Assembly (NCBI GenBank): GCA_023954495.1
Contig: JAMLIA010000010.1
Span: 1 to 60,780, forward strand
Source: Thermomicrobiales bacterium
Lineage (GTDB): Bacteria > Chloroflexota > Chloroflexia > Thermomicrobiales > CFX8
Length of the DNA stretch: 60,780 nucleotides
Direction of reading: 5' to 3'
Shown here one piece after another: positions 34,722 through 49,930 of the stretch. The first letter of the stretch is position 1, and each line of letters begins with the position of its first letter. A program made the translations under genes and the position numbers. Under the pieces are notes generated by a model, which was not told the DNA's origin, searched no databases, and saw nothing but the letters and a program-made list of their open reading frames with translations.

Positions 34722-34967
34722 TCAGGCCGCTTCCTGAGTGGGTGAGCGCTCCAGTTCGGCGTCTTCAGCGGCTCCAACATAGATCGTGTTGACCGCGACG
34801 TGCGCTGCCGGTCGGACATCCATCTCTTCAATATCCACGAGCTGCGACGGATTAACCAGCGCAATTGCCGGTAGTTGCCCGCGCTTGCGCTCATAGCGTC
34901 GCGCCGCAGCTGCGATCTTCTCCTGCATCGTCTTCTTCTTGTCAGGGTCATACCAGCCAAGAAACAT
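34722..34967 (-). CDS. 81-aa protein under a LexA-type operator
   Basis: An 81-residue soluble protein. The N-terminus MFLGWYDPDKKKTMQEKI leads into a basic helix (AAAARRYERKRGQLPAI) and a strand-rich part with LVNPSQLVDIEEMDVRPAA and NTIYVG. AAAGGAG six bases before the ATG sets the start; a TTG at 34973 is less likely. Its promoter contains a palindromic operator, annotated separately, so it is probably damage-inducible. It converges on the biotin carboxylase gene and is divergent from mraZ. I have seen proteins of this type in Chloroflexota, but know no function. Confidence 0.75.
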   Translation of the reverse strand: MFLGWYDPDKKKTMQEKIAAAARRYERKRGQLPAIALVNPSQLVDIEEMDVRPAAHVAVNTIYVGAAEDAELERSPTQEAA

Positions 34968-34988
34968 GTGCAACTCCTTTCAATGCTC

Positions 34989-35016
34989 ATTGTAACAGAA
35001 CATATGTTCTATACAA
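34989..35016 (-). promoter_or_regulatory. Promoter of the 81-aa gene
   Basis: On the minus strand TTGTAT (35016-35011), 16 bases, then TACAAT (34994-34989), which is close to the vegetative sigma consensus. The 16-base spacer is almost filled by a GAACATATGTTC palindrome. The -10 is 22 bases before the start codon. Confidence 0.7.
34998..35009. promoter_or_regulatory. lexA box: LexA-type operator GAACATATGTTC
   Basis: A perfect palindrome of the GAAC-N4-GTTC type, with one more matching base on each side. This is the LexA/DinR box of Firmicutes and Actinobacteria. It lies between -35 and -10 of the 81-aa gene, where a bound repressor would block RNA polymerase. Binding by LexA is inferred from the match. 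Confidence 0.6.
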
Positions 35017-35176: not shown

Positions 35177-35205
35177 TTGTACGTACACCCCGTTCGTGTC
35201 ATACT
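35177..35205 (+). promoter_or_regulatory. Candidate dcw promoter (mraZ)
   Basis: TTGTAC (35177-35182), 17 bases, then CATACT (35200-35205). The transcript would start near 35212, inside the repeat array annotated next, about 100 bases before the GTG of mraZ. Confidence 0.5.
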
Positions 35206-35255
35206 GTGGACAACTGTGGGGGAAAGTGGGGATAAGTGGGGTGGTTTGTGGATAA
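35205..35255 (+). promoter_or_regulatory. GTGG repeat array: MraZ boxes with DnaA-box-like sites
   Basis: GTGG repeats start at 35206, 35216, 35226 and 35236, exactly 10 bases apart, and a fifth at 35248. The three central ones are GTGGGG. MraZ of E. coli binds direct TGGG repeats of this period just downstream of its own promoter, so this is the likely autoregulatory site. Three units also resemble DnaA boxes. TGTGGATAA (35247-35255) is the exact complement of TTATCCACA. TGTGGACAA (35205-35213) and TGGGGATAA (35227-35235) each differ from it at one position. Confidence 0.65.
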
Positions 35256-35309: not shown

Positions 35310-35738
35310 GTGTTTCTCGGACGTCACCAGCACAATCTCGATGATAAGGGGCGACTGGCGTTGCCCGCCAAGTACCGCGACCAGTTGCAGGACGGTGTCG
35401 TCCTGACGCGCGGTTTCGACCGCTGCCTGCTGGTCTATCCGATGGCTGCCTGGATTCCGCTCGCCGAACGTGTTTCTGCATTGTCGATTGGCGACCCGGA
35501 TGGCAGAGTTCTACGCCGCATGCTGTTTGCGAACGCGGTCGACGCCCAGCTCGATCGGCAAGGTCGGATCCTGATTCCGTCTGAGCTACGAGACCATGCC
35601 GGGCTGGAGCGCGAGGCGGTTGTCGCGGGCATGCACACGTTTCTTGAGATTTGGTCGCCCGACGAATGGGCCGGGCAGGACGAGCTGGTCGAGCGCGATG
35701 GGGCGTCGATCGCTGAGCGGTTGGCGGCGCTCGTCTAA
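35310..35738 (+). CDS. mraZ: Transcriptional regulator MraZ
   Basis: This 142-residue protein with two SpoVT/AbrB-like DNA-binding repeats is the first gene of the dcw cluster. FLGRHQHNLDDKGRLALPAKYRD is the first repeat and DAQLDRQGRILIPSELRDHAGL the second, both with the D-x-K/Q-GR signature. It represses its own promoter in E. coli. Here the GTGG array lies 55-105 bases upstream. The start is GTG with GAGG upstream. It precedes rsmH by 45 bases. Confidence 0.94.
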   Translation: MFLGRHQHNLDDKGRLALPAKYRDQLQDGVVLTRGFDRCLLVYPMAAWIPLAERVSALSIGDPDGRVLRRMLFANAVDAQLDRQGRILIPSELRDHAGLEREAVVAGMHTFLEIWSPDEWAGQDELVERDGASIAERLAALV

Positions 35739-35783: not shown

Positions 35784-36797
35784 ATGAATGTGTACGACCT
35801 TGATCCTGACACGATCCAGCCGGGTGCGGCTGGGGCGGGCGAGTGTTTCTTGCCGTCTGAACCTGTGACGCAGAGTCACATCAGCGTGCTCGCTGACGAA
35901 GCTGTCGATGCGCTCGCCATTCGGAGCGACGGCGTCTACATCGATGGCACGTTCGGCGCGGGCGGTCACGCGCGGCGGATTGCTGAGTGCGTCGGAGATG
36001 CCGGGCGCGTTATCGGGATCGACCGCGACCCGGATGTTGCACCGTTCGCCGATGCCCTTGCAGCGGATTTCCCGGATGTCTTCACGTTCGTGCCTGGCTC
36101 ACATAGTGAGGCAGCCGCAATCGCCAACCGTCTCGGATTCGCGTCGGTCGATGGCATCTTGCTCGACCTCGGCGTGTCGTCGATGCAGCTGGATCGGGCG
36201 GATCGCGGGTTCAGCTTTCAGTCCGATGGGCCGCTGGATATGCGTTTCGACCCGACGCGCGGCGCGAGTGCCGCCGAGCTGATCGCGACAGCCGACGAGG
36301 CCGAGCTGGTGCGGATTCTGTTCGAGTACGGCGAGGAGTCGAAGGCGCGTCGGATTGTGCGGGCGATCGTCGCCGAGCGTGAGCGAGGGCCTATTGAGAC
36401 AACTGCAGCGCTGGCCGGGTTGGTCGAGCGCACGATCGGCCGACGGCCCGGCACGCGCATTCACCCAGCCACGAAGACATTTCAGGCGCTCCGCATTGCA
36501 GTGAACGACGAGCTTGATGAGGTCGAGAGCGGCGTTCAGGCCGGTATCGACCTGCTGGCGACCGGCGGCCGCATGGCTGTCATCACGTTTCACTCGCTTG
36601 AAGACCGGATCGTGAAGCGTGCCTTTGCCGATGCAGCGCGCGGCTGCATCTGTCCGCGGGATGTGCCGGTCTGCGTCTGCGGCCGAGTACCGACCGTCCG
36701 CCTCGTCGGCAAGGCGATCAAGCCGAGCGCCGATGAAATCGCCGCTAACCCGCGCTCGCGCAGCGCGAAGCTCCGCGTCGTGGAGCGTCTGCCATGA
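35784..36797 (+). CDS. rsmH: 16S rRNA (cytosine-1402 N4) methyltransferase
   Basis: This 337-residue methyltransferase, formerly MraW, modifies C1402 in the ribosomal P-site. QSHISVLADEAVDAL is the usual N-terminus. VYIDGTFGAGGHARRI is the SAM-binding loop, and DGILLDLGVSSMQLD, PLDMRFDP and FHSLEDRIVK are family motifs. About 30 residues precede the normal start; one of the later codons may be the real one, but the ATG given is the first with a purine-rich AAAGAAG. Its stop overlaps the ftsL-like start (ATGA). Confidence 0.95.
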   Translation: MNVYDLDPDTIQPGAAGAGECFLPSEPVTQSHISVLADEAVDALAIRSDGVYIDGTFGAGGHARRIAECVGDAGRVIGIDRDPDVAPFADALAADFPDVFTFVPGSHSEAAAIANRLGFASVDGILLDLGVSSMQLDRADRGFSFQSDGPLDMRFDPTRGASAAELIATADEAELVRILFEYGEESKARRIVRAIVAERERGPIETTAALAGLVERTIGRRPGTRIHPATKTFQALRIAVNDELDEVESGVQAGIDLLATGGRMAVITFHSLEDRIVKRAFADAARGCICPRDVPVCVCGRVPTVRLVGKAIKPSADEIAANPRSRSAKLRVVERLP

Positions 36798-37268
36798 ACC
36801 GTACGCAGCAGACGACAAGCTGGACGCCGGTCGAGACTGAGTCGCCTCCAATCCCCGAACGACCTGCTCCGCTGAACGCGCGTCCACGGCGGGTCAACAA
36901 CATGATGTTCGTTGACCATCTCGATCGTTGGGCTGCTCTATCACGATCCAGACCAGCCACGTCGCAAAGGCTCGGCTTCGCGAGTCAGCCGACTGGAGCG
37001 TAGCGCATGAACGCGCTGGAAAATCAGCGCGTTACCTGTCAGTCGCCCAGCGCGACAGTCGCTGCCCACGATTGAACAGATCGCCCGCGACCAGCTAGAT
37101 ATGCAGCCGATGGATGCGCACGTCTACCTGACCGTCCCGGCACCAGCGACCGAGCAGCTTGCGCTGCCGTCTCCGCAGGAGGGTCGCACGCGCTCGTTGG
37201 CAGAACGCATTCTGGATCGCCTGACCGGCGAGGCCGAGGCCAATCATCCAGTGGAGGGTGCGCCATGA
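36794..37268 (+). pseudogene. ftsL: FtsL-like division protein, coding pieces in three frames
   Basis: The locus starts by ATGA overlap with rsmH and ends by ATGA overlap with ftsI, as an intact gene would. The N-terminal 40 residues are in frame with the ATG at 36794. The membrane segment (LTISIVGLLYHD) is one frame over at about 36912-36947. Coiled-coil-like pieces (QTSHVAKARLR, VSRLERS, ALENQRVT) alternate between frames to 37045. From 37071 the C-terminus IEQIARDQLDMQPMDAHVYL runs open to the stop at 37268, the pattern typical of FtsL/DivIC. FtsL bridges FtsQ/DivIB and FtsW/FtsI in the divisome and is normally essential. Several indels are needed to explain the pieces, so decay, a sequence error or replacement elsewhere are all possible. 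Confidence 0.75.
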
Positions 37269-38980
37269 ATCAACACGCGGCGCCACACAACCGGATCACG
37301 ATCCTGTTCATCGTCTTCATGCTGCTGATGGTCCTGATCGGCTATCGAGTCGTCGCCGTCCAGGTCGTGCGATCGAGCGAATACAGCCAGTGGGCGGTCT
37401 CCGAGCGGATGCAGGAGGACATCGTCCCAGCGCGGCGCGGCGAGATCTATGACAGTCGCGGCGTTCGGCTGGCGACCAACGTCCCGGCGGTGCGGGTGTC
37501 GGCAATTGTCGATCAGATCGTCGATCGCAATGCTGCGTCCGCGCAGCTTGCGCCGCTGATCGGGCGTTCTGCGGCCGATATTCTGGATGCGCTGAACCAG
37601 CCCGGGATTGAGTGGGTCGTGCTCGCGCGCCATCTCGCGCCCGAGGTGGGCGATCAGATTACCAACCTCGCCCTTGCCGGTATCGTGCTGGATTCCGAGC
37701 CGAGCCGCGTCTACCCGTTCGGCGATTTCGCCTCGCAACTGCTCGGCTTCACCAATGATGCGCTGGTCGGGAACTATGGTGTAGAGGGTGAGTACGATTC
37801 ACTGCTGGCCGGAGAGCCGGGCGAGCTTGTTGGAGAGCGCGACGGCGAAGGCAACGTCATCGCGGTGACCGAATCGACCTGGAACCCACCGGTTGATGGC
37901 TCGGATGTGACGCTGACCATTGATAGTGCCGTACAGGAAACGATCGAGCGCATTCTGCAGGACACGATCAAGGAACAGCGCGCGATCGGCGGGACGATCA
38001 TTGTCCAGGATCCGAATACCGGCGCGATTCTCGGGATGGCCAGCGAGCCGGGCTACGATCCAAACGACTTCGCCGATGTCTCGAATCCATCGACCTATCT
38101 GAACCCGGCGATCTCGGCCGTCTACGAGCCAGGCTCGACGTTCAAGTCGGTCGTGATGTCGATCGGCATTGACTCCGGCGCGGTGACGCCGGAAACCACG
38201 CATAACGACGAGCCGGGCTATCTGGAATTGCCCGACGGCAGCCGGATCACGAACTTCGAGGGCGTCGTCTGGGGCACCGAGACGATGACGCAAGTTCTCC
38301 AGCGCTCGGCCAACCTCGGCGCGATCTTCGTGGCCGACAAGATCGGGCGCGAGAAGTTCTATGAGGGCTTGCAGGCGTTCGGGTTTGGCACACCAACTGG
38401 AGTCGATCTGCAGGGCGAGGAGCAGGGCATCCTGACGTTGCCCGGCGAAAGCGGCTGGAACGATGCGCTCTACGCGACCAACGCCTTCGGCCAAGGCATC
38501 GCCTGCACGCCGTTGCAACTGGTGAACGCTGTCTCGGCGATCGTCAATGGCGGCAAGCTGATGCAGCCGTACGTCGTCGCGCAGGTTCATTCGGACGATG
38601 GCACGACGGTTACTCAGCCGACGGTCGTGCGGCAGGTCATTTCAGAACAGTCATCGTCAACGATGCGGACAATGCTCGAAGATGTCGTTGACAATCCCGA
38701 TAGCCTCTATCCATCCGTCCCCGGTTATCGAATCGGGGCCAAGACCGGCACGGCGCAGATTCCTTCGCCGGCAGGTGGCTATATTGATGGCGCAACGATC
38801 GCGTCGATTGTCGGCTTCGGGCCGGTCGAGAATCCTCAGTTCAGCGTGCTGGTCAAGATCGACTGGCCGAAAGAGGAGGGCACTGGCCTGGAAGTCAGCG
38901 GACCGGTCTTGCAGAAGGTATTCGAGCAGCTGTTCCTGCTGTACGGGATTCCACCCGATGATCTGGAGGCGGCACCGTGA
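37265..38980 (+). CDS. ftsI: Penicillin-binding protein 2/3 (FtsI-type transpeptidase)
   Basis: This 571-residue class B PBP crosslinks septal peptidoglycan. It has one N-terminal transmembrane helix (about residues 11-31). The dimerisation domain includes ARRGEIYDSRGVRLATN. The transpeptidase has STFK with nucleophile Ser291, RSANLGA as the SxN box, and KTG from Lys493. No PASTA domain is present. The ATG overlaps the ftsL-like stop, and the stop overlaps murF (GTGA). The next gene is murF, not murE. Confidence 0.95.
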   Translation: MNQHAAPHNRITILFIVFMLLMVLIGYRVVAVQVVRSSEYSQWAVSERMQEDIVPARRGEIYDSRGVRLATNVPAVRVSAIVDQIVDRNAASAQLAPLIGRSAADILDALNQPGIEWVVLARHLAPEVGDQITNLALAGIVLDSEPSRVYPFGDFASQLLGFTNDALVGNYGVEGEYDSLLAGEPGELVGERDGEGNVIAVTESTWNPPVDGSDVTLTIDSAVQETIERILQDTIKEQRAIGGTIIVQDPNTGAILGMASEPGYDPNDFADVSNPSTYLNPAISAVYEPGSTFKSVVMSIGIDSGAVTPETTHNDEPGYLELPDGSRITNFEGVVWGTETMTQVLQRSANLGAIFVADKIGREKFYEGLQAFGFGTPTGVDLQGEEQGILTLPGESGWNDALYATNAFGQGIACTPLQLVNAVSAIVNGGKLMQPYVVAQVHSDDGTTVTQPTVVRQVISEQSSSTMRTMLEDVVDNPDSLYPSVPGYRIGAKTGTAQIPSPAGGYIDGATIASIVGFGPVENPQFSVLVKIDWPKEEGTGLEVSGPVLQKVFEQLFLLYGIPPDDLEAAP

Positions 38981-40374
38981 TTCGCGTCCATGACATCCTG
39001 GCTGGGACGGGCGGGCGCATGTTTGGCAGCATCTCGCGCAACGATCTGCTAAACCGCGTGGTCCACGACTCGCGTGATGTCGGTGAAGGTGATCTGTTTG
39101 TCGCGCTGCAGGGCGAGCGCGTGGATGCCCATCGCTTCGTGCCGGATGCGCTGGAGGCCGGAGCCGGGGCAGTGATGGTGAACGAGGAGTGGTTTCGCCG
39201 CTTCGACCTCGGCGATCTGCCGGTTATCGTCGTGCCGGACACACTGGTTGCGCTGCAATCGCTAGCGAAATATTGGCGCACACTGTTCAGTGATACGCAG
39301 GTGATCGGTATCACCGGCAGCATCGGCAAGTCGAGCACCAAAGAGGTGTTGTCGGCGGTGCTGTCGCAGCGCTATCAGGTGACGCGCAGCCGCAAGAGCT
39401 ACAACAACGAAGTCGGTCTGCCGATTTCGGTGCTGGAGATCACGCCCGACACCGACATATCCGTACTGGAGATGGGCGGTGCGTACGCATTCGGCGAGAT
39501 CACCCAACTGGCAACGATCGCCCAGCCGACGATCGGCGTCGTGACGAACGTCTCGCACTCCCACCTGGGCCGGATGGGTTCGCTGGATGCCATCGCCCAG
39601 ACCAAGACTGAGCTGGTCGAGGCGCTGCCGGCTGACGGCCTGGCCGTCCTCAACATCGACGATGAGCGCGTCCGCGCGATGGCCGAACACGCGTCCTGTC
39701 GGGTTGTCTACTACGGCATCGATCCGGAGGCTGAGTACTACGCGACCGATCTGGAGAGCCGTGGGATGGACGGTATCTCGTTCACCCTGCACCACGGCGA
39801 GGTCCAGAGCTACATCAGCGTGCCGCTGATGGGTCGCCACAGCGTCCACATGGCACTGGTCGGCATTGCGGTTGGCACTGAGCTTGGTCTCTCGCTGGCT
39901 GACATCTTGCGCGGTTTCCAGACGCCGGACATTCAGTTGAGGTTGCTGTTGCTGCCGGGCGTGAATGGCTCGACTGTGCTGGACGACAGCTACAACGCCA
40001 ACCCGGCCTCCTGCGTGGCCGCGCTGAATCTGCTTGTCGAGCTGGATGCGACACGCCGTGTCGCCGTCTTCGGGGACATGTACGAGCTCGGCTCGTATGA
40101 GGAAGAGGGCCACCGGCTGGTTGGTGGGCGCGCGGCTGAGACGGTCGATGCGCTTTACACGATGGGGCCGCGGGCGCGGCTGATCGCCGCCGAGGCAGTG
40201 CGGGCGAAGCCCAACCTGCCGGTCGAAATGTTTGATGACAAGCGCGCGTTGGAAGACGCATTGCGTCGGGACCTGAAACCGGGGGATCTGGTCTTGATCA
40301 AGGGATCACGGGGATTGGAGCTGGAGACGCTGGTAGCAGCGCTCCGGACGGAAACGACTGGGGATTCGGATTGA
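38977..40374 (+). CDS. murF: UDP-MurNAc-tripeptide-D-Ala-D-Ala ligase
   Basis: This 465-residue Mur ligase adds D-Ala-D-Ala to the UDP-MurNAc tripeptide. The HDSRDVGEGDLFVALQGERVD part is the N-terminal UDP-binding domain, and GSIGKSSTKE around Lys118 is the P-loop. LDDSYNANPASCVAAL is a MurF signature that separates it from MurE. The start is GTG in a GTGA overlap with ftsI, and the stop overlaps mraY. MurE (tripeptide ligase) would usually precede it but is absent here. Confidence 0.94.
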   Translation: MIRVHDILAGTGGRMFGSISRNDLLNRVVHDSRDVGEGDLFVALQGERVDAHRFVPDALEAGAGAVMVNEEWFRRFDLGDLPVIVVPDTLVALQSLAKYWRTLFSDTQVIGITGSIGKSSTKEVLSAVLSQRYQVTRSRKSYNNEVGLPISVLEITPDTDISVLEMGGAYAFGEITQLATIAQPTIGVVTNVSHSHLGRMGSLDAIAQTKTELVEALPADGLAVLNIDDERVRAMAEHASCRVVYYGIDPEAEYYATDLESRGMDGISFTLHHGEVQSYISVPLMGRHSVHMALVGIAVGTELGLSLADILRGFQTPDIQLRLLLLPGVNGSTVLDDSYNANPASCVAALNLLVELDATRRVAVFGDMYELGSYEEEGHRLVGGRAAETVDALYTMGPRARLIAAEAVRAKPNLPVEMFDDKRALEDALRRDLKPGDLVLIKGSRGLELETLVAALRTETTGDSD

Positions 40375-41429
40375 TAACGCCGGCCTATGCGGTCGAGCTC
40401 TTCGACTCGCTTCGTCACGGGGTGGTCACGAACTCGTTGCTGCCGCTCGACCCACTCGACAATCTGGCCATCTCGCTGGGTCTCTCCGGTGTCGCCTTCA
40501 TCATCGCGCTGGCGTTCGGCAGGCCGTACATCGATCTGTTGCGAGCGCGCGGGATCGGCAAGAAGATCCGGATTGATGGCCCGGAAGGGCACATGACCAA
40601 GACCGGCACGCCGACGATGGGAGGCGTGATCTTCATCGCGACCGTGATCGTGCTGACAATTGTGTTCAACCTCATCGGGCGGCTGTCCATGTTGTTGCCG
40701 CTTGGCGTGCTGACGTTCACCGCGGTGCTGGGCGGGATCGACGATCGGCTGAATCTGGTCGGCGGGCAGTCCACCGGACTGACGGCGCGGTTCAAGATGG
40801 TGTGGTTGCTGCTGTTCGCGGCGGTCAGTTCCCTGGTGCTCTATTTCCCGCTCGGATTGCACAGCATCTATATCCCGTTCATCGGGCAGTACAACATCGG
40901 CCTGCTCTACATTCCAATCGCGCTGTTCAGTATTTCCGGGACGGCGAACGCGGTGAACCTGACCGATGGGCTGGATACGCTGGCGGGCGGCACGGCAGCG
41001 GTGGCATTCACGGCCTACGGCATCATCGCCTTCCTGCAGGGGCAGGTACAGGTCGTCACCTTCTGCTTCACGATGGTTGGCGCGCTCTTCGGCTTCTTGT
41101 GGTTCAACGCGCACCCGGCGCAGGTCATTATGGGTGACTGTGGCGCGCTGGCGCTCGGCGCGTCGCTGGCGACAGTCGCGTTCATGACCGGGCAGTGGCT
41201 GTTGCTGCCGATTGTCGGAGCCGTGTTCGTCGCCGAGACGACGTCAGTCATGTTGCAGGTGGCGTGGTTCAAGCGCACCGGCGGTAAACGCCTGTTCAGG
41301 ATGACACCGCTCCATCATCACTTCGAGCTGCTCGGCTGGAGTGAGACGCAGGTAACCTTGCGCTTCTGGCTGGCCGGCATGATGGCCGGACTGCTCGGTG
41401 TCGCGCTGGCGGTCGGGGGACCGGCATGA
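40371..41429 (+). CDS. mraY: Phospho-MurNAc-pentapeptide transferase
   Basis: This 352-residue, ten-helix membrane enzyme moves phospho-MurNAc-pentapeptide to undecaprenyl phosphate, forming lipid I. Visible are KTGTPTMGGVIF, GGIDDRLNLVGGQSTGL with the Asp pair, NLTDGLDTLAGG, GDCGALALGA and TPLHHHFELLGWSE, all active-site motifs. The start is TTG in a TTGA overlap with murF; the stop overlaps murD. Lipid I made here needs MurG, which is not in this cluster. Confidence 0.95.
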   Translation: MITPAYAVELFDSLRHGVVTNSLLPLDPLDNLAISLGLSGVAFIIALAFGRPYIDLLRARGIGKKIRIDGPEGHMTKTGTPTMGGVIFIATVIVLTIVFNLIGRLSMLLPLGVLTFTAVLGGIDDRLNLVGGQSTGLTARFKMVWLLLFAAVSSLVLYFPLGLHSIYIPFIGQYNIGLLYIPIALFSISGTANAVNLTDGLDTLAGGTAAVAFTAYGIIAFLQGQVQVVTFCFTMVGALFGFLWFNAHPAQVIMGDCGALALGASLATVAFMTGQWLLLPIVGAVFVAETTSVMLQVAWFKRTGGKRLFRMTPLHHHFELLGWSETQVTLRFWLAGMMAGLLGVALAVGGPA

Positions 41430-42838
41430 ACGCCGCCCCGCTTGCCCTGCGCGGCAAGCGCGTCCTGCTGATCGGCCTTGGCGCACGCAAAGGCGGGGTC
41501 GGGGTCGCGCGGTATCTGATCGGGCAGGGCGCTGAGGTCCGCGTGACCGATCTGCGCAGCGCCGAACAGTTGGCCGCCTCGCTGGCCGATCTGGATGGCC
41601 TGCCGATCGGCTGGACGCTTGGTGAGCATCGCGAAGAGGACATCGACTGGGCCGACATCGTCGTGCGCAATCCGGCTGTCCCGGCGTCGTCACCGTGGCT
41701 GGCCCGTGCGCGCGACCAGGGCAAGCCGGTCGAGATGGAGATGACGCTCTTTTTCCGCGCCTGCCCAGCGCCGATCATCGGCGTCACCGGCACGAAGGGT
41801 AAGACGACGACGACGACGTTGCTGCACGCCATGCTGCGCGAGCATTGGCCAGAGGCGGTGCTGGCCGGCAATATGGGCGTCTCGGCACTGGCGCAACTGC
41901 CCGATCTGCGTGCCGAAGTGCCGATCACGTTGGAGCTGTCGTCGTTCCAGCTCGAAGGACTGGACGAGCACCATCTCGCCCCGCACGTGGCCGTGCTGAC
42001 CAATATCGCGCCCGATCATCTTGATCGCTACGACAGCTTCGATGAGTACGCCGCGACGAAAGCGACGATCTTCCGCTGGCAAACGCCGCGTGTGGACTTC
42101 GCCGTCTACGATCCGGGCGATCCACTGGTGAAGATGCTGACCAACGCTGCGCCTGGGCAGTGGGTGCTATTCGGCAGCGGCTACCGCCCCGGTCTCCATC
42201 CGGACGTGTGGGTCGAGGATGGCGAGTTTTGGGCTGCCTGGACTAACGAGCCGGTGAGTCTGGGTCCTGTCGATGCACTACAGGTCCCCGGCGAGCACGC
42301 GCAGCGCAATGCACTCGCTGCAGCGGCGGCAGCGCTGGCCGTCGGCGTGTCGGAAGCAGAGATCCGCCGAGCAATAGCTGGCTTCACCGGAGTTGCCCAT
42401 CGGCTTGAGCCTGTCGCCACGATCGATGGCGTGGCCTGGGTCAACGACAGCGCGGCGACTGCGCCATCGGCGGCTGTTGCCGCGCTGCGTGCCTATGCGG
42501 GGCGCGGCATCGTCGCGATCTCCGGTGGCTATGACAAGCTCCTGGCGATGGACGATGTCGCTGACGAGCTCGCTCGCTCTGCACGGGCTGTCGTGCTGCT
42601 GGATGGCACGGTCACGCCGCAGCTTACGAAGCTGCTGGCGGCGCGAGGTGTCGAGCCGGTTGGCGAACCGGCGATGTCGATGGATGAGGCGGTCGAACGC
42701 GCGGCGTCCCTGGCTCGTCCAGGCGACGTCGTTTTGCTGTCACCGGGATGCGCGAGCTTTGGGCTGTTCCGCGATGAGTTCCATCGCGGCGATGCCTTTC
42801 GTGAGGCTGTCGAGCGGCTGGCTGAGGACGCGTCATGA
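41426..42838 (+). CDS. murD: UDP-MurNAc-L-Ala-D-Glu ligase
   Basis: This 470-residue Mur ligase adds D-glutamate to UDP-MurNAc-L-Ala. VTGTKGKTTTTTLLHAML is the P-loop with the catalytic Lys. NIAPDHLDRYDSFDEYAATKA and AHRLEPVATIDGVAWVNDSAAT are family motifs, and AISGGYDKLLAMDDV follows in the C-terminal domain. The ATG overlaps mraY's stop and the stop overlaps ftsW, keeping the cluster coupled. Confidence 0.94.
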   Translation: MNAAPLALRGKRVLLIGLGARKGGVGVARYLIGQGAEVRVTDLRSAEQLAASLADLDGLPIGWTLGEHREEDIDWADIVVRNPAVPASSPWLARARDQGKPVEMEMTLFFRACPAPIIGVTGTKGKTTTTTLLHAMLREHWPEAVLAGNMGVSALAQLPDLRAEVPITLELSSFQLEGLDEHHLAPHVAVLTNIAPDHLDRYDSFDEYAATKATIFRWQTPRVDFAVYDPGDPLVKMLTNAAPGQWVLFGSGYRPGLHPDVWVEDGEFWAAWTNEPVSLGPVDALQVPGEHAQRNALAAAAAALAVGVSEAEIRRAIAGFTGVAHRLEPVATIDGVAWVNDSAATAPSAAVAALRAYAGRGIVAISGGYDKLLAMDDVADELARSARAVVLLDGTVTPQLTKLLAARGVEPVGEPAMSMDEAVERAASLARPGDVVLLSPGCASFGLFRDEFHRGDAFREAVERLAEDAS

Positions 42839-44175
42839 TGCGATGGCGTGCTCGGCAACAGCCGAAGACGAGTGTTCGCTATCATGATCCTGACTGGTGG
42901 CTCTTCGCCATTCTGCTGACGCTGGTGATGTTCGGCACGGTCATGATCTTCTCGGCTACCTTCCCGGAGACCGTCGGCGATGTCGGACTCAGTCAGTACA
43001 GCGGCCTGATACGCCAGCTTATCTACGTGCTGGTCGGCACAGCCGGGCTGTTGGTGGCGATGCAGGTGGATTACCACCGCTACGCGCGCTGGGCGGTGCA
43101 TGGCATGGCGGCGGTGCTGCTGGTGCTGGCGGCGCTGGTGCTGATCCCTGGGGTCGGCACTGAGGTGTATGGGGCGAAGGCGTGGATCTTCGTTGGACCG
43201 ATCTCAATCCAGCCGAGTGAGGTCGCCAAGTTGGCCATGATTCTCTACATGGCTGCCTGGTTCGCCGGCAAGGGCGGCAAGGTTCGCTCGGTGTCGTCGG
43301 GGCTGGCGCAGTTCTGCGTCGTCATGGGTTTGCTGATCGGGCTGTTGATGCTGGAGCCGGACCTCGGCACTGCATCGCTCGTGGCGACGATCGGCGTAGC
43401 GATGTTCTTCGTGGCCGGTGCAGCGCCAGTGCAATTTGCCGGGCTGCTGATTGTCGGTGCCATCGGCTTCCTGACGATGGCGCTGAGCGCGTCATACCGG
43501 CGCGACCGTCTGCTGCTGTTCCTCAATCCGGACTCTGACCTGAAGAATCTGGGCTGGCAGCTCTATCAGGCGCGCCTGGCGCTCGGTTCCGGCGGCCTGT
43601 TCGGTGTTGGTCTGGGAGCGAGCCGCCAGAAGTTTTCGTGGCTGCCCGCCGCACACAACGACGCGATCTTCGCCGTCATCGGCGAGGAGCTCGGGCTGAT
43701 CGGCTGCGCGGTTGTCGTCGGGCTCTTCGTGGCGCTGGGCTATCACGGCTACCGGATCGCGATGCGCGCGCCGGACACGTTCGGGACGCTGGTTGCGGTC
43801 GGCATTACAACCTGGCTGGTCTTCCAGGCGGCCTACAACATCGGCGGCGTGACGCTGGCGATCCCGTTCACCGGCATCCCACTGCCGTTCATTTCGGCAG
43901 GCGGCTCGTCACTTGTCGTGGCCATGACTGCCACCGGCATCCTGCTCAACATATCGAGACAGACGCTATCCGAGGCCGAGATGCGTCCGAGAGTGGTCGC
44001 TGTAGCTCAGCCAGTCGCGAATGTCCCAACGCCACCGACGCCGCAACCGCGTCGGCAGCATCCCGCACCGGCGCACTATCGCCGGGCGCGACGCACGACC
44101 AGTGTTGAGCGGCGACCGATAGAGGCGCGACCGCAACGGACGCAGGAGCGAGATTGGCCGGAGCCGTGGGAATGA
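42835..44175 (+). CDS. ftsW: SEDS-family lipid II polymerase FtsW
   Basis: This 446-residue SEDS glycosyltransferase works with FtsI at the septum. It has about ten hydrophobic segments. LGIGLGASRQKFSWLPAAHN-like loop 7, here GVGLGASRQKFSWLPAAHND, and FIGEELGLIG-type motif AVIGEELGLIG are present. GIPLPFISAGGSSL is the usual C-terminal signature. A Pro/Arg-rich cytosolic tail of about 65 residues follows. It overlaps murD and murC by ATGA. The next gene is murC; the murG normally between is absent. Confidence 0.93.
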   Translation: MMRWRARQQPKTSVRYHDPDWWLFAILLTLVMFGTVMIFSATFPETVGDVGLSQYSGLIRQLIYVLVGTAGLLVAMQVDYHRYARWAVHGMAAVLLVLAALVLIPGVGTEVYGAKAWIFVGPISIQPSEVAKLAMILYMAAWFAGKGGKVRSVSSGLAQFCVVMGLLIGLLMLEPDLGTASLVATIGVAMFFVAGAAPVQFAGLLIVGAIGFLTMALSASYRRDRLLLFLNPDSDLKNLGWQLYQARLALGSGGLFGVGLGASRQKFSWLPAAHNDAIFAVIGEELGLIGCAVVVGLFVALGYHGYRIAMRAPDTFGTLVAVGITTWLVFQAAYNIGGVTLAIPFTGIPLPFISAGGSSLVVAMTATGILLNISRQTLSEAEMRPRVVAVAQPVANVPTPPTPQPRRQHPAPAHYRRARRTTSVERRPIEARPQRTQERDWPEPWE

Positions 44176-45572
44176 GTCAGCGCGGACCATACGATCTGCA
44201 CGACGTTCAGTTGCCCGATCCACCGGCGCACGTCCATATGGTCGGCATCGGCGGGGTGGGTGTCAGCGGGCTGGCGCGCATGCTCGTCCGTCGTGGCTAC
44301 TCGGTGTCCGGCTCCGATATCAACGACTCGCCGATCGTTCGCGACTTGCGTGCCGAGGGGATACCTGTCGCAATCGGGCACGCCGCCGAGAATGTCGGTG
44401 ACGCTGATCTGGTTGTCATCACCGCAGCGCTAAAGCCGGATAATCCCGAACTGGTTGAGGCGGAGCGACATGGCATCCACGTCGTCAAACGTGCAGCAGT
44501 GCTGGGGTTGCTGGCGAATCCGGCTGTGTGTCTGGCCGTGGCGGGGTCGCACGGAAAGTCGACGACGTCCGGCATGGCTGCACTGGCGCTCGATCGCGCC
44601 GGCGTGCAGCCGTCGTTCGCCGTTGGTGCGACGGTGCGGGAGCTCGGCACGAACGCGCGACTGAGCGATGGACAGCATATCGTCGTCGAGGCTGATGAGT
44701 ACGATTACTCGTTCCTCTGGCTGCGCCCGCGTGTCGCGATCATCACCAACATCGAGCACGACCACCCCGACATCTTCGCTGACCTCGTCCAGATCCTCGA
44801 TGCGTTCGCTCGATTTGCGGACGGCATCGCACCCAACGGTACGGTGGTGCTTTCAGCCGAGGACGAAGGCTGTCGGGCGCTCCTGAAACGCATCGATCGC
44901 GACGCCTTCGCGCCCAGAATCGTGACATTTGGCGAGTCGGTTGGCGATTGGCGACTGAACACTGGAGCGGATGTTTCGACAGCGGTGTCGCCGTCCGGAC
45001 AGGTGTTCGAGTTGCGGCTGTCTGTGCCAGGTAGGCACAATCTGTTGAATGCGCTGGCGGTCCTGGCGTCTGCCGAGGGGCTTGGGCTGGAGCCGGATGC
45101 GCTGCTGGCGGGGCTGGCTGAGTTTGGCGGCGTCAGTCGTCGGTTCGAGGTGTGCCGGGACGACGAAATCGCGGTTGTGAGCGACTACGCGCACCACCCG
45201 ACCGAGATTGCGGCGACGATTGCGGCGGCGCGCGAACGCTTTCCAGATCGACGTATTGTCGCCGTCTTTCAGCCGCACACCTATTCGCGGACGCGCGCCT
45301 TGCTGGATGAGTTCGCCCACGCGCTCGACGCGGCTGATCAGGTGGTGCTGGCTGACATCTATCGAGCCAGAGAGGTTGATTCGCTCGGCGTCTCGTCGGG
45401 CGACATTGCGGCCAGGATGACGGCAGCGGTGCAAGTGGCGAGCGATCCAGCCGAGAGCGCGCAGGTGGTGCGCGAGATGCTGCGATCCGGAGATGTCGTG
45501 CTGGTCATGGGGGCCGGCGACATCTACCTGGCAGCCGAGACGCTGGCAGATACAGATACTTCACTCAACTGA
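44172..45572 (+). CDS. murC: UDP-MurNAc-L-alanine ligase
   Basis: This 466-residue Mur ligase adds L-Ala to UDP-MurNAc. HMVGIGGVGVSGLARMLVRRG is the N-terminal motif. VAGSHGKSTTSGMAAL is the P-loop, VEADEYDYSFL the family motif, and SDYAHHPTEIAATIAA contains the catalytic region. An in-frame TTG at 44154 lies inside ftsW; the ATG at 44172 makes the usual ATGA overlap. The following murB starts 50 bases downstream. Confidence 0.94.
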   Translation: MSQRGPYDLHDVQLPDPPAHVHMVGIGGVGVSGLARMLVRRGYSVSGSDINDSPIVRDLRAEGIPVAIGHAAENVGDADLVVITAALKPDNPELVEAERHGIHVVKRAAVLGLLANPAVCLAVAGSHGKSTTSGMAALALDRAGVQPSFAVGATVRELGTNARLSDGQHIVVEADEYDYSFLWLRPRVAIITNIEHDHPDIFADLVQILDAFARFADGIAPNGTVVLSAEDEGCRALLKRIDRDAFAPRIVTFGESVGDWRLNTGADVSTAVSPSGQVFELRLSVPGRHNLLNALAVLASAEGLGLEPDALLAGLAEFGGVSRRFEVCRDDEIAVVSDYAHHPTEIAATIAAARERFPDRRIVAVFQPHTYSRTRALLDEFAHALDAADQVVLADIYRAREVDSLGVSSGDIAARMTAAVQVASDPAESAQVVREMLRSGDVVLVMGAGDIYLAAETLADTDTSLN

Positions 45573-45622
45573 CCGGAGGATCACGCGACGCGACCTCTCC
45601 GGCGGAAGGCAGGCGAACGACA

Positions 45623-46591
45623 ATGAGCGCACGAGGGCGAGTCAAGGGCGCCCCGCCGATAGAGGTGACCGAGGGCGACGTAACCATCGCGATCCAGCCG
45701 GAAGCACGCACCGACCTGTACAACACGTTCCGCGTCGGCGGGCCGGCGGATTACCTGGTCCGGGCCGGCAGCGCCGAGCAGATCGGGCTCGCCTTGCGCT
45801 GGGCTCGCGAGCGGTCGCTGCCGATCACGATCTTCGGTGGTGGCTCGAACATGCTGGTGAGTGACCGCGGCATACGCGGTCTGGTCATCGTCGTCCGCCG
45901 TCCTGGTAAGGACGCTGAAGCGGGCCTGGAAGTGGTACAGGAGACGGACAACGACGTTCTCGTCCGCGTGCCGGCCGCCGCGCCGTCCAACTGGTTCGGA
46001 CGGACGGCAGCCGAGCGCGGCTGGGCCGGTCTGGCCTGGCTGGTGGGCCTGCCCGGCAACGTCGGCGGCGCTGTGGTCAACAACGCCGGTGCCCACGGCG
46101 GCGAGATCAAGGACTATCTCGTCTCGCTGCGGGTGGTCGGCGCAGACGGCGTACTGGTCGAGCACGATCGTGAGTGGCTCCAGCCGCGCTATCGCGGCAC
46201 GCGCCTGAAATATCCCGAGGACGACGATGTCCTGGTCGTCGTTGACGCGACATTCCGCTTCGCGAAGGGCTCACCGAACGAGCTGACGCGCGAAGCTGAC
46301 GAGTATGCCGACTACCGGCACCGGACGCAACCGACGGGCGCGTGTGCCGGATCGATCTTCAAGAACCCTGAAGGTGACTTCTCGGGTCGATTGATCGAGG
46401 CGGCTGGCTTGAAGGGCACGCGGGTTGGTGGTGCCACTGTCTCGACGAAGCACGCCAATTTCATCGTCAACGATGCGAAGGGTTCCGCCGCAGACATCGT
46501 CGAGCTGATCCGCGTTGTGCAGGCGGAAGTGCGGCGGCAGACCGGCGTGCAGCTCGACCCCGAGGTCGAGCGGATTGGAGACTGGACATGA
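45623..46591 (+). CDS. murB: UDP-N-acetylenolpyruvoylglucosamine reductase
   Basis: This 322-residue FAD-dependent reductase makes UDP-MurNAc. [13 protein letters not shown] and [21 protein letters not shown] are FAD-binding segments. [39 protein letters not shown] with the catalytic Ser, and [10 protein letters not shown] follow; this is a type II-like MurB. Its start lies 50 bases after murC, the first non-overlapping pair within the murein genes. The stop overlaps ddl (ATGA). Confidence 0.93.
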
Positions 46592-47718
46592 CCCAAGCCA
46601 GACGCGTTCGCGTCGGGGTTGTCTTCGGCGGTCGTTCGGGCGAGCACGACGTGTCACTGCGCTCGGCGCAGACGGTGATGGCGGCGCTTGAGGCTGCGGG
46701 ACACGACGTTGTGCCGATCGGCGTCAGTCGCCAGGGGGCCTGGCTCACCAGTGGCGACCCGATGGGTGAGCTGCAAGCCCAGTCGCCACTGTTTGCGCTG
46801 CCCTCCGGCGAGCGGCAGCGCGGCTCGGTTCTCGATGAGGTCGAGAACCTGGCGCTGTCGGCGCAGAAATCTGGCGAAGTTGCCGTAATCCCGGCCAACG
46901 GCTGGGCCGGCAGCATCGACGTCATCTTCCCCGTTTTGCACGGGCCGATGGGCGAGGACGGCACCGTTCAGGGCCTCTTCGAGCTGGCTGGTCTGCCCTA
47001 CGTCGGCGCGGGAGTGATGGCGTCTGCCGTAGCGATGGACAAGTCGGTCGCCAAGCAGATCATGGCGCAGTCCGGACTGCCGCAGGCACCGTGGCTGACG
47101 GTCCTGCGCAAGGAGTGGGCGCGTTTCCCGGATGCGGTCATCGCTGATGTTGAGCGTGAGCTGGGCTATCCCTGCTTCGTGAAGCCGGCGAACCTCGGGT
47201 CCAGCGTCGGCGTCTCGAAGGTCAACGACGTGAACGAGCTGGCCGCTGCGATGGCCGAAGCGGGTCGACACGATCGCAAGATCCTGATCGAGAAGGGCAT
47301 CAACGCGCGCGAGCTAGAGGTGTCGGTGCTGGGCAATGACGAGCCAGTCGCCTCAGTCGTTGGCGAGGTCATCCCTGGCCACGACTTCTATGACTACGAA
47401 GATAAGTACGTTGACGATTCTTCGCAGCTTCTCATTCCCGCGCCGATCCCGGACGAGGTGTCCGAAGAAGTGCGCGGGTTGGCTGTTCGTGCGTTCAAAA
47501 TGCTGGACTGCGCCGGTATGGCTCGCGTCGATTTCTTCCTCGAACGCGACACCATGCGGGTCCTGCTGAACGAGGTCAACACGATCCCCGGCTTTACCGG
47601 CATCAGCATGTACCCAAAGCTCTGGGAGGCGACCGGCGTGCCGATAGCGGATCTGGTGCGGCAGCTGGTTGATCTGGCAATCGAGCGCCATGAGGAGCAA
47701 CGGGGTGGCGGTGCCTGA
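46588..47718 (+). CDS. ddl: D-alanine-D-alanine ligase
   Basis: This 376-residue ATP-grasp enzyme makes the D-Ala-D-Ala used by MurF. VVFGGRSGEHDVSLRSAQ is the N-terminal signature. PCFVKPANLGSSVGVSKV binds ATP and NEVNTIPGFTGISMYP binds metal. FYDYEDKYVDDSSQL contains the Tyr that favours D-Ala over D-lactate. It overlaps murB by ATGA. FtsQ begins at GTG 47705 inside its 3' end. Confidence 0.94.
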   Translation: MTQARRVRVGVVFGGRSGEHDVSLRSAQTVMAALEAAGHDVVPIGVSRQGAWLTSGDPMGELQAQSPLFALPSGERQRGSVLDEVENLALSAQKSGEVAVIPANGWAGSIDVIFPVLHGPMGEDGTVQGLFELAGLPYVGAGVMASAVAMDKSVAKQIMAQSGLPQAPWLTVLRKEWARFPDAVIADVERELGYPCFVKPANLGSSVGVSKVNDVNELAAAMAEAGRHDRKILIEKGINARELEVSVLGNDEPVASVVGEVIPGHDFYDYEDKYVDDSSQLLIPAPIPDEVSEEVRGLAVRAFKMLDCAGMARVDFFLERDTMRVLLNEVNTIPGFTGISMYPKLWEATGVPIADLVRQLVDLAIERHEEQRGGGA

Positions 47719-48454
47719 GCCGCAGCCTGCTGCGGCGATGCCCGGCGCACCGGTGCGTGAGCGCAGTCCGCAGCGCATCGGCATGTTGCGCAGTGGTCGG
47801 ATTCCGGCTGCGGTCATCGTTGTCGCCTGCGGCATCCTGCTGTATGGCTTTCTGCTGTCGGGTGACTTCCTGGTGGCGTCGGTCGTGGTGCGCGGCGTGG
47901 AGCTGGGTGATCCGGCCGAGGTCGCGACGACTGCGGATGCCATCGGTGAGCCGATCTTCAGCATTGATGCCGGGGCGGCGGCGGACCGTGTTGCGCTGCT
48001 GCCGTATGTTGAGCACGTCAGCGTCCGGACGAGCTTTCCAGACAAGGTCACGATTGCCGTTATCGAACGCCAGCCGGTCGTCGCCTGGAAGACAGGCGAC
48101 AGCATCGCGCTGATCGATCAGCGCGGTCATGTCCTGACCGACAGTCGACCGCTCCCCGATGGTTTGCCCAGCGTCATCAACGAGCTGGAAGCACCGAGCG
48201 TGGGGCAGACGCTCGATCCAGCGATTGTCGCGTCCGTCATTGCCGCTGCCGATACGCTTGGTGAGGTTGCCGATGCGTTGCGCTGGACGACCGACGACGG
48301 CCTGGTCGCTGCCTTGCGCGACGATCGCCAGGTCATCTTCGGCTCGCCGGATCGTATGCCGATGAAGCTCGCCGTCTATCAGACCGTTGCAGCCGGTGGG
48401 TCGGTCTGGGAAGTCCTGGACTTGCGCGAACCGGACCGTCCGTACTATAAGTAG
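47705..48454 (+). CDS. ftsQ: FtsQ/DivIB-type division protein with POTRA domain
   Basis: This 249-residue protein has a short cytoplasmic head, one transmembrane helix (about residues 34-54) and a POTRA domain beginning VASVVVRGVELGD. PYVEHVSVRTSFPDKVTIAVIERQPVVAW is the typical FtsQ core. The stop comes early: only about 80 residues lie after the POTRA domain. GAGGAG at 47692-47697 precedes GTG 47705 by seven bases; earlier in-frame ATGs lie deeper in ddl. It interacts with FtsL in other bacteria, so a broken ftsL matters here. Confidence 0.85.
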   Translation: MAVPEPQPAAAMPGAPVRERSPQRIGMLRSGRIPAAVIVVACGILLYGFLLSGDFLVASVVVRGVELGDPAEVATTADAIGEPIFSIDAGAAADRVALLPYVEHVSVRTSFPDKVTIAVIERQPVVAWKTGDSIALIDQRGHVLTDSRPLPDGLPSVINELEAPSVGQTLDPAIVASVIAAADTLGEVADALRWTTDDGLVAALRDDRQVIFGSPDRMPMKLAVYQTVAAGGSVWEVLDLREPDRPYYK

Positions 48455-48589
48455 GGACAGTGTACGTACAGTGTGGTACGATGGTATCAGGCGGCTCTGT
48501 ACGAGGAATGGTGATGGGCATCATCGTCATGTGACGAAGGGAACGCATTTGCCCGTGCCGCGAAACGAGGAACGACCGGAGTAGCAGCC

Positions 48590-49930
48590 GTGCCTGACCA
48601 GTTTATCGTCGGTATCGACATCGGCTCGAGCAAGCTCTGCTCGGCCGTGGCGCTCCGCGATCCGGAGGGCGGGGTGCGGTACGTCGGCCATGGCAGTACC
48701 GCGTCCGGTGGATTGCGTGCCGGTGAAGTATCCGACCCCGAGTCCCTTGGCGCAGCATTGCGTCGCGCCGTTGAAGAGGCGCGCTATCTCATTGGCGTCA
48801 ATGTTGAGGATGTCGTCGCAACGATTGCTGGCGCTCGCATCCAGACGCTTGAGCGCATGGGCGGCGTCGACATCGACGGCAGCCGACCAGTTGCGGCACG
48901 CGATATTCGGCGTGCGCTGGACGATGCGCGCGGTCGTGATCCGGACGGCATGGCGACGATCCATCGGGTCGTGCGCGCGTTTGCTGTTGATGGCGAGCCG
49001 GTTGACGATCCGTCTGGACGCTACGGTCGGCGGCTGGATGTCTGGACGCGCGACTTCGCGGTGCAGACCGTAATCACCGAGGGGCTGCGTCGAGCTGCAG
49101 ATCTCGCTGGCATTCGCGTGCATACGCTCGTGCCGACTGGCGTTGCTGTTGCCGCCGCCGTGACATCCCAGACGGAGCGTGACGCCGGGATCGCCGTCGT
49201 CGATATCGGCAGCGCGACGACGGATATTGCTGCCTATCTCGGTGGTGAGCTGCAGCACCTGGTCTCGTTCCCGCTCGGTGGCCACCACATCACCGCCGAT
49301 GTTGCCTCGATTCTGGAGATCCCGATTGAGGAGGCCGACCGGCTGAAGATTGAGCACGGCGCGATCAGCGAAGACGTTGACGAAGAGCTGATCGACTGGT
49401 CGCCGCGCACGATCGCCGCGCTGCAACGGCAGGCGAAGTACGGCAATCTGCCTGGCTCAGCGGTGCGGTCGATCACTGCCGCCCGGACGGTGCAGATCAT
49501 CGATCAGGTCAAGGCGACGCTCGACGATCTGGACGACACACGGCGCTTGCGGGCCGGTGTTGTGCTGACCGGCGGTACGGCGCAGTTGACCGGCATCGTC
49601 GATATCACGCGGGCGATTATGGGGACGGCCGTGCGTGAGGGGCACGTGCTCCCGGGTGGCGGCTTCCCCAGTATTGGGGATCCCGGCGTCAGCTCTGCGG
49701 TCGGCCTGATCCGCTACGTGACTGGCAGATCGGTAGGGATGTCGCCGACGCGGCAACGGAGCCCGGCGACGGCCGGCATCGTGCATCCGCTGGTAATGAA
49801 TCCGCTCGCTGGAGGCGCTACAATTGACGTAACGCGCCGACAGCGAACACGGCAACCGAACCAGCGGGGCTGGGGCACGATTGTGAAGGGCTGGGTGCGA
49901 GAGTTTATTCCGGTCAGTCCGGCCGACTAA
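48590..49930 (+). CDS. ftsA: Cell division protein FtsA
   Basis: This 446-residue actin-like protein anchors FtsZ to the membrane. VGIDIGSSKLCSAVA is the phosphate-1 loop. AVVDIGSATTDIAAYLGG is phosphate-2, and VVLTGGTAQLTGIVDI the adenosine motif. The C-terminal GWGTIVKGWVREFIP is an amphipathic helix like the membrane-targeting sequence. A 135-base gap after ftsQ lies before its GTG, so it may have its own promoter (TACGAT near 48476 is a possible -10). ftsZ follows after 81 bases. Confidence 0.94.
   Translation: MPDQFIVGIDIGSSKLCSAVALRDPEGGVRYVGHGSTASGGLRAGEVSDPESLGAALRRAVEEARYLIGVNVEDVVATIAGARIQTLERMGGVDIDGSRPVAARDIRRALDDARGRDPDGMATIHRVVRAFAVDGEPVDDPSGRYGRRLDVWTRDFAVQTVITEGLRRAADLAGIRVHTLVPTGVAVAAAVTSQTERDAGIAVVDIGSATTDIAAYLGGELQHLVSFPLGGHHITADVASILEIPIEEADRLKIEHGAISEDVDEELIDWSPRTIAALQRQAKYGNLPGSAVRSITAARTVQIIDQVKATLDDLDDTRRLRAGVVLTGGTAQLTGIVDITRAIMGTAVREGHVLPGGGFPSIGDPGVSSAVGLIRYVTGRSVGMSPTRQRSPATAGIVHPLVMNPLAGGATIDVTRRQRTRQPNQRGWGTIVKGWVREFIPVSPAD

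Follow-up and report, generated by a model that had tools for sequence, protein, structure and literature searches.

The DNA analysed here, referred to below as the window, is a stretch of 60,780 nucleotides belonging to the 3.36-Mb assembly G000 of a Thermomicrobiales bacterium, and the feature under study comprises the promoter and the leader region of a complete dcw gene cluster. On the plus strand this cluster opens with mraZ (35310..35738; GTG start, 142 aa; Pfam PF02381, E 5.2e-37), which is followed by rsmH (mraW; 35784..36797; PF01795, E 7e-107) and by ftsI/pbpB encoding a penicillin-binding protein (37265..38980; PF00905 and PF03717). Further along the same strand there are murF, mraY, murD, ftsW, murC, murB, ddl and ftsQ (38977..48454), open reading frames named by inspection of their sequence only, then ftsA (48590..49930; PF14450, E 6.3e-23) and, after it in the cluster, the open reading frame of ftsZ. 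On the other side of the promoter, the sequence GAACATATGTTC at 34998-35009 resembles a LexA (SOS) box of the Gram-positive type and lies just upstream of a minus-strand ORF of 83 aa (34722-34973) for which no Pfam match was obtained; this neighbor of the dcw promoter is possibly an SOS gene.

The -10 element of the mraZ/dcw promoter, CATACT (35200..35205, plus strand, 4/6 matches to consensus), is followed directly by GTGG units in 10-bp phase and by three DnaA-type boxes. Its -35 counterpart, TTGTAC (35177..35182, plus strand), is weak, having 3/6 consensus matches and a 17-bp spacer to CATACT, and a simple promoter scan gives this pair no promoter score. The position of the -35 element is identical in the four family members possessing mraZ, and relatives carry TATAAT, TATACT, TATGCT and similar hexamers immediately 5′ of the array. 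The proposal of the earlier sequence-only reading that the array comes directly after a -10 is thereby borne out, a TATA-like -10 ending exactly at the start of the array in nearly all relatives. That reading had also located GTGG repeats in precise 10-bp phase (35206, 35216, 35226 and 35236) and a perfect complement of a DnaA box at 35247-35255, and inspection of the sequence confirmed both, since TGTGGATAA is the complement of TTATCCACA; the two boxes with one mismatch that it described correspond to TGTGGACAA at 35205-35213 and TGGGGATAA at 35227-35235. Its view of the repeats as an MraZ array stands for units 2-4, which have the GTGGGG core, and fails for the number of boxes, the first GTGG being a part of a DnaA-type element. 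We count three MraZ boxes rather than four because unit 1 and the GTGG at 35248 belong to the TGTGGAYAA type and not to GTGGGG.

Thus, on the plus strand, MraZ boxes 1 (35216..35221), 2 (35226..35231) and 3 (35236..35241) follow one another in 10-bp phase; the first and the third are kept in relatives, and the second is invariant in 25 genera with 2.0 bits per column. DnaA-type box 1, TGTGGACAA (complement TTGTCCACA; 35205..35213), contains the first GTGG unit at 35206 and has one base in common with the -10, whose last T is its first base. Box 2, TGGGGATAA (complement TTATCCCCA; 35227..35235), overlaps MraZ box 2 by five bases, while box 3, TGTGGATAA (35247..35255), reads as an exact TTATCCACA on the minus strand, lies 42 bp after box 1 and has its GTGG 12 bp after MraZ box 3, that is, outside the 10-bp phase. 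What is expected of an MraZ operator, namely placement at the promoter that precedes mraZ and at least three direct repeats with GTG(G) core in 10-bp phase, is found here, and recognition as DnaA boxes is supported by one exact match to TTATCCACA and two matches with one mismatch. With its first base being the final one of the -10, the array spans the expected start of transcription together with roughly the first 45 bases of the transcript.

Conservation was assessed in the same GTDB order and two neighboring families: 61 genomes of the order gave 39 with an MraZ match and 38 usable leaders, to which families f6 and f8 add three for a total of 41. A distance of exactly 42 bp separates the outer DnaA-type boxes in 38 of these 41 mraZ leaders, and the triple with 22- and 20-bp steps is complete in 35. 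The aligned leaders read TATAAT-TGTGGAYAAC-N-GTGGGG-NNAA-GTGGGG-AYAA-GTGGGG-N5-TGTGGATAAC, the -10 and the first box having one T in common, which ends the former and opens the latter. When each genus is represented by a single sequence (25 genera), information content amounts to 1.45 bits per column in the array versus 0.17-0.33 in its flanks; GTGG is followed by ATAA or ACAA at box 1 in 23/25 genera, GTGGGG by the same tails at box 2 in 22/25, and the middle box is of the AAAA type in 3/25, having one mismatch in the window genome. Two kinds of unit persist throughout the order, GTGGGG at units 2-4 and TGTGGA[T/C]AA(C) at units 1 and 5.

As TGTGG is common to the DnaA and MraZ motifs, part of the match to DnaA boxes is built in, and for this reason the comparison was made on the tails. 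ATAA, ACAA and AAAA, which are known or plausible variants of the DnaA box, follow TGTGG 35, 17 and 7 times, respectively, in the 38 leaders of the order, and six permuted tails together only once, whereas ATAA and ACAA tails are found in 0/33 leaders of Chloroflexia. At the variable position 7 of the box, most genera have either T or C in boxes 1 and 2, and the same two variants are present at oriC-like loci. On the strength of the tail control and of the contrast with Chloroflexia, DnaA-type boxes are conserved beyond what MraZ boxes would need. The sequence-only reading would have been refuted by lack of conservation of TGTGGATAA in related mraZ leaders; given the frequency of the 42-bp pair and the near absence of permuted tails, it passed this trial decisively. 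Leader counts are not independent events owing to kinship, a problem lessened by counting per genus and by recurrence in separate families. DnaA with its DNA-binding domain IV is present in every genome tested.

Genome-wide search of the 61 genomes for two TGTGGAYAA within 47 bp returned 41 matches, compared with one for the reversed pattern. Fifteen of them fall in mraZ leaders, about 24 in oriC-like loci, and single ones in G020 and on contig 239 of G033; the pair on contig 54 of G020 was set aside as an apparent repeat in a coding-like stretch. The oriC-like loci contain many boxes in an intergenic stretch with partly common neighboring ORFs, the same-strand boxes being placed at 20-22 bp steps, often as three at 21 and 20 bp (G053, G046, G047, G039 and G060) versus 22 and 20 bp at mraZ, and the outer-box variants TTATCCACA and TTGTCCACA are present there as well. 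Thus the mraZ array is similar to oriC DnaA box arrays in box variants, confinement to a single strand and near-equal steps, and differs from them in its location at a promoter, in the MraZ boxes lying between, in the middle box TGGGGATAA and in its position away from the GC-skew switch. An oriC-like box set is thus present in the mraZ leader.

The relation to the replication origin is best seen in G016, a genome of the same order complete in two contigs, the first of which (2,741,033 bp) we take to be chromosome 1 of Sphaerobacter thermophilus; given this completeness, a cultured representative of the order is likely available. Its 4 Mb contain no more than four exact TTATCCACA sites, two of them in the mraZ leader, and over eight genomes this location applies to 7 of 58 exact boxes. 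The sign of the GC skew in G016 switches somewhere between about 2.6 Mb and 0.2 Mb; around mraZ, at 2.22 Mb, the skew remains negative, and the oriC-like counterpart is likely to be the locus at 2.594 Mb, near the sign change. Location of oriC at the mraZ leader is ruled out by the GC skew, which does not switch there in G016, and by the oriC-like clusters found elsewhere. An origin beside dnaA was likewise rejected, no DnaA-box cluster being detected in 7-10 kb around dnaA in 13 genomes; in G028 a DnaA-box pair lies about 7.5 kb from dnaA. At L069 (contig 13 of the window genome) and other dnaA loci the gene stands apart from box clusters, with oriC-like loci situated elsewhere. The oriC of the window genome was not recovered via homology to G003, as the homologous contig ends before it.

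The survey was extended to 251 genomes of the phylum by pattern search and to an independent sample of leaders, E. coli being the only representative from outside. The interleaved operator was found in the order and in f6 and f8, and the distant families f34, f37, f39, f48 and f75 have the same design minus one 10-bp MraZ unit, so that the boxes are 32 bp apart. In f23, f30 and f49 a DnaA-box set is located upstream of the mraZ promoter in both orientations, two inverted boxes 11 bp apart being accompanied by one direct box about 25 bp on with nearly fixed spacing (L271, L272, L274, L278, L330 and L331 in f49; L301, L302 and L332 in f23; L289 and L291 in f30). This is a second architecture of the link between DnaA and mraZ, and since its boxes occupy a different place, the link is independent of the MraZ boxes. 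A third placement was noticed in f20 (L270, L273 and L283), where a single TGTGGATAA stands shortly before the mraZ start, beside MraZ-type repeats. The leader in Chloroflexia (f11-f14) typically consists of only three GTGGGG units with A-rich spacers and has no DnaA-type parts: the box pair was found in none of 33 mraZ leaders, many other families of the phylum are likewise without it, and in E. coli the mraZ leader contains three MraZ boxes (GTGG units) without the pair. Because Chloroflexia and E. coli have GTGG(G) boxes only, the MraZ operator and the DnaA-type parts are separable, and because one member of Chloroflexia (L233) has a DnaA-box cluster elsewhere in its genome, their absence at mraZ is not simply a matter of changed DnaA specificity.

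Among members of the order, L213, L214, L215 and L217 (from G058, G060, G059 and G050, respectively) are devoid of mraZ; in G059 and G050 the dcw cluster is rearranged, rsmH being adjacent to or overlapping with an upstream biotin-carboxylase-like gene and having murF as its immediate downstream neighbor. As a test of independence these genomes turned out to be uninformative, rsmH being joined to the upstream carboxylase-like gene with the whole leader gone. Since loss of mraZ removes the entire leader, there is no genome where DnaA boxes survive alone at the exact site.

These comparisons allow weighing the reading by which MraZ acts alone, TGTGGAYAA being specialised end boxes of the operator read by edge subunits of the MraZ ring and resembling DnaA boxes by accident. 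Such an assumption is compatible with the position of unit 1 in MraZ phase, with variation of the spacing by whole 10-bp units and with joint disappearance of the leader and MraZ, and we regard it as unlikely without discarding it. Leaders with three GTGG(G) boxes in Chloroflexia and E. coli do without such ends, the 12-bp offset puts DnaA-type box 3 out of phase, and the T/C variation together with the tail corresponds to DnaA boxes exactly; moreover, sets of the same elements recur at oriC-like loci, and other families have them in both orientations ahead of the promoter. Another possibility, for which we see rather little room, is that the boxes serve mainly as a DnaA sink or a chromosomal marker for DnaA titration or remodelling, like datA or DARS, with location at mraZ being secondary. 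A dense group of DnaA boxes which are rare elsewhere in the genome would suit this purpose, but the set keeps a base-exact position with respect to the -10 and the MraZ boxes, tracks the mraZ promoter in several families and, judging by the GC skew of G016, does not mark a replication origin.

Control of mraZ by a G-quadruplex of the G-rich strand, either as DNA or as RNA structure, has a published precedent in S. aureus (PMC11796246) and could exploit the GGGG runs of units 2-4. It seems highly improbable here, as there are only three runs of at least three G, units 1 and 5 have none, and neither the conserved AYAA tails nor the match to oriC-like boxes would be explained. As to chance, with up to two mismatches allowed one would expect 0.07 occurrences per window of the four-unit GTGG phase pattern, which is observed here without any mismatch, and three same-strand near-DnaA boxes within 51 bp appeared in 0/400 shuffles of the window and in 0/5000 shuffles of the leader. 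Single near-DnaA boxes show no enrichment across the window (5 observed, 3.8 expected); the evidential weight is carried by box clustering and conservation and not by the number of single near-boxes. That motifs containing TGTGG overlap by chance in a single genome, a view which this lack of enrichment would favor, is refuted by conservation over many families, with the shuffles also against it, and is hardly worth retaining.

With a probability of roughly 0.78 and in the absence of any binding or expression data, we consider the 51-bp array 35205-35255 to be a composite mraZ/dcw operator, in which the MraZ boxes are nested in a three-box DnaA set and the two proteins both repress and compete. 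The sites, their spacing, their conservation and the likeness to oriC-like box architecture are observed directly. The three GTGGGG boxes in 10-bp phase would then make up the operator through which MraZ represses its own operon, while the three DnaA boxes, all oriented alike and placed at steps of 22 and 20 bp, the first preceding the MraZ boxes, the second overlapping the middle one of these and the third following them, would be loaded with DnaA, probably in its ATP form, as happens at oriC with boxes of similar spacing. Given overlapping footprints, DnaA and MraZ are predicted to exclude each other or to add up to repression, the suggestion of repression by either protein and of mutual exclusion being based on the position of the array over the expected +1 and on the overlap of boxes. 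Transcription of dcw would accordingly be low when DnaA is abundant and free and might rise after initiation through DnaA inactivation or titration. Binding, competition, the direction and timing of the DnaA effect and expression following initiation are at present inference only. Since the layout is kept base for base in relatives, the division genes may have a direct connection to replication.

One more motif, the palindrome TGTACGTACA, overlaps the -35 element (35178..35187), where it is conserved in the four family members with mraZ, and is met again within the dcw cluster upstream of ftsA (48461..48470). It has 30 sites in the window genome versus none for the reversed control. These sites adjoin dnaA, nrdJ, thyX, two dCTP deaminase-like (dcd) genes and the genes for a dGTPase-like HD protein and a PHP-domain protein reading like DnaE, as well as those for a tyrosine recombinase, ftsK, ftsA, mraZ, bactofilin and several wall enzymes including hydrolases. 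In G001 and G053 the palindrome flanks the oriC-like locus, and orthologous promoters of G001 that carry it belong to thyX, dacA, rsfS, alaS/uvrC, miaB and the gene of a LysM protein. TGTACGTACA is the core of the operator of B. subtilis AraR, a regulator of the GntR family (PMC4218819), and this identity hints at a GntR-type regulator; among the publications searched that contain the string, none apparently deals with such a regulon, judging by title. The motif looks like an operator of an undescribed cell-cycle regulator, perhaps of GntR type. We only tentatively extend this to a dcw promoter operating as a three-input cell-cycle gate, with DnaA versus MraZ on the interleaved operator and the undescribed TGTACGTACA regulator, perhaps from the GntR family, at the -35, and rate this extension at somewhat less than an even chance; if true, that regulator would be the functional counterpart of CtrA/MtrA in Chloroflexota.

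Coupling of replication to division is still an open question, and a 51-bp operator that is retained across many families, reappears in different arrangements elsewhere in the phylum and would require the initiator and the dcw repressor to share bases offers a compact, directly testable case. MraZ is a dcw repressor, and in both E. coli and M. genitalium it acts on the operon that encodes it (PMC8475190); the operators of E. coli and Mollicutes are built of the same direct repeats with GTG(G) core, phased at 10 bp and located immediately after the mraZ promoter, three boxes GTGGGAAATTGTGGGGCAAAGTGGG in the former and (AAAGTGKN3)3 in the latter (PMC5282649). Unlike in these systems, the three MraZ boxes are nested here among DnaA-type boxes, the spacer that follows the second MraZ box being AYAA in most cases. 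DnaA regulates ftsZ in Caulobacter, and this gene and the ftsL operon of B. subtilis likewise have DnaA at a division-gene promoter. In B. subtilis DnaA was located at the ftsL promoter by ChIP (reviewed in PMC8203912; PMC11019786), and proteomics of 2024 found RsmH and PbpB of the ftsL operon unchanged after replication arrest, FtsL being undetected (PMC11019786). Interleaving of MraZ and DnaA sites has been described for neither the B. subtilis ftsL operon nor Caulobacter ftsZ, and the interleaved operator at the dcw promoter appears to be new.
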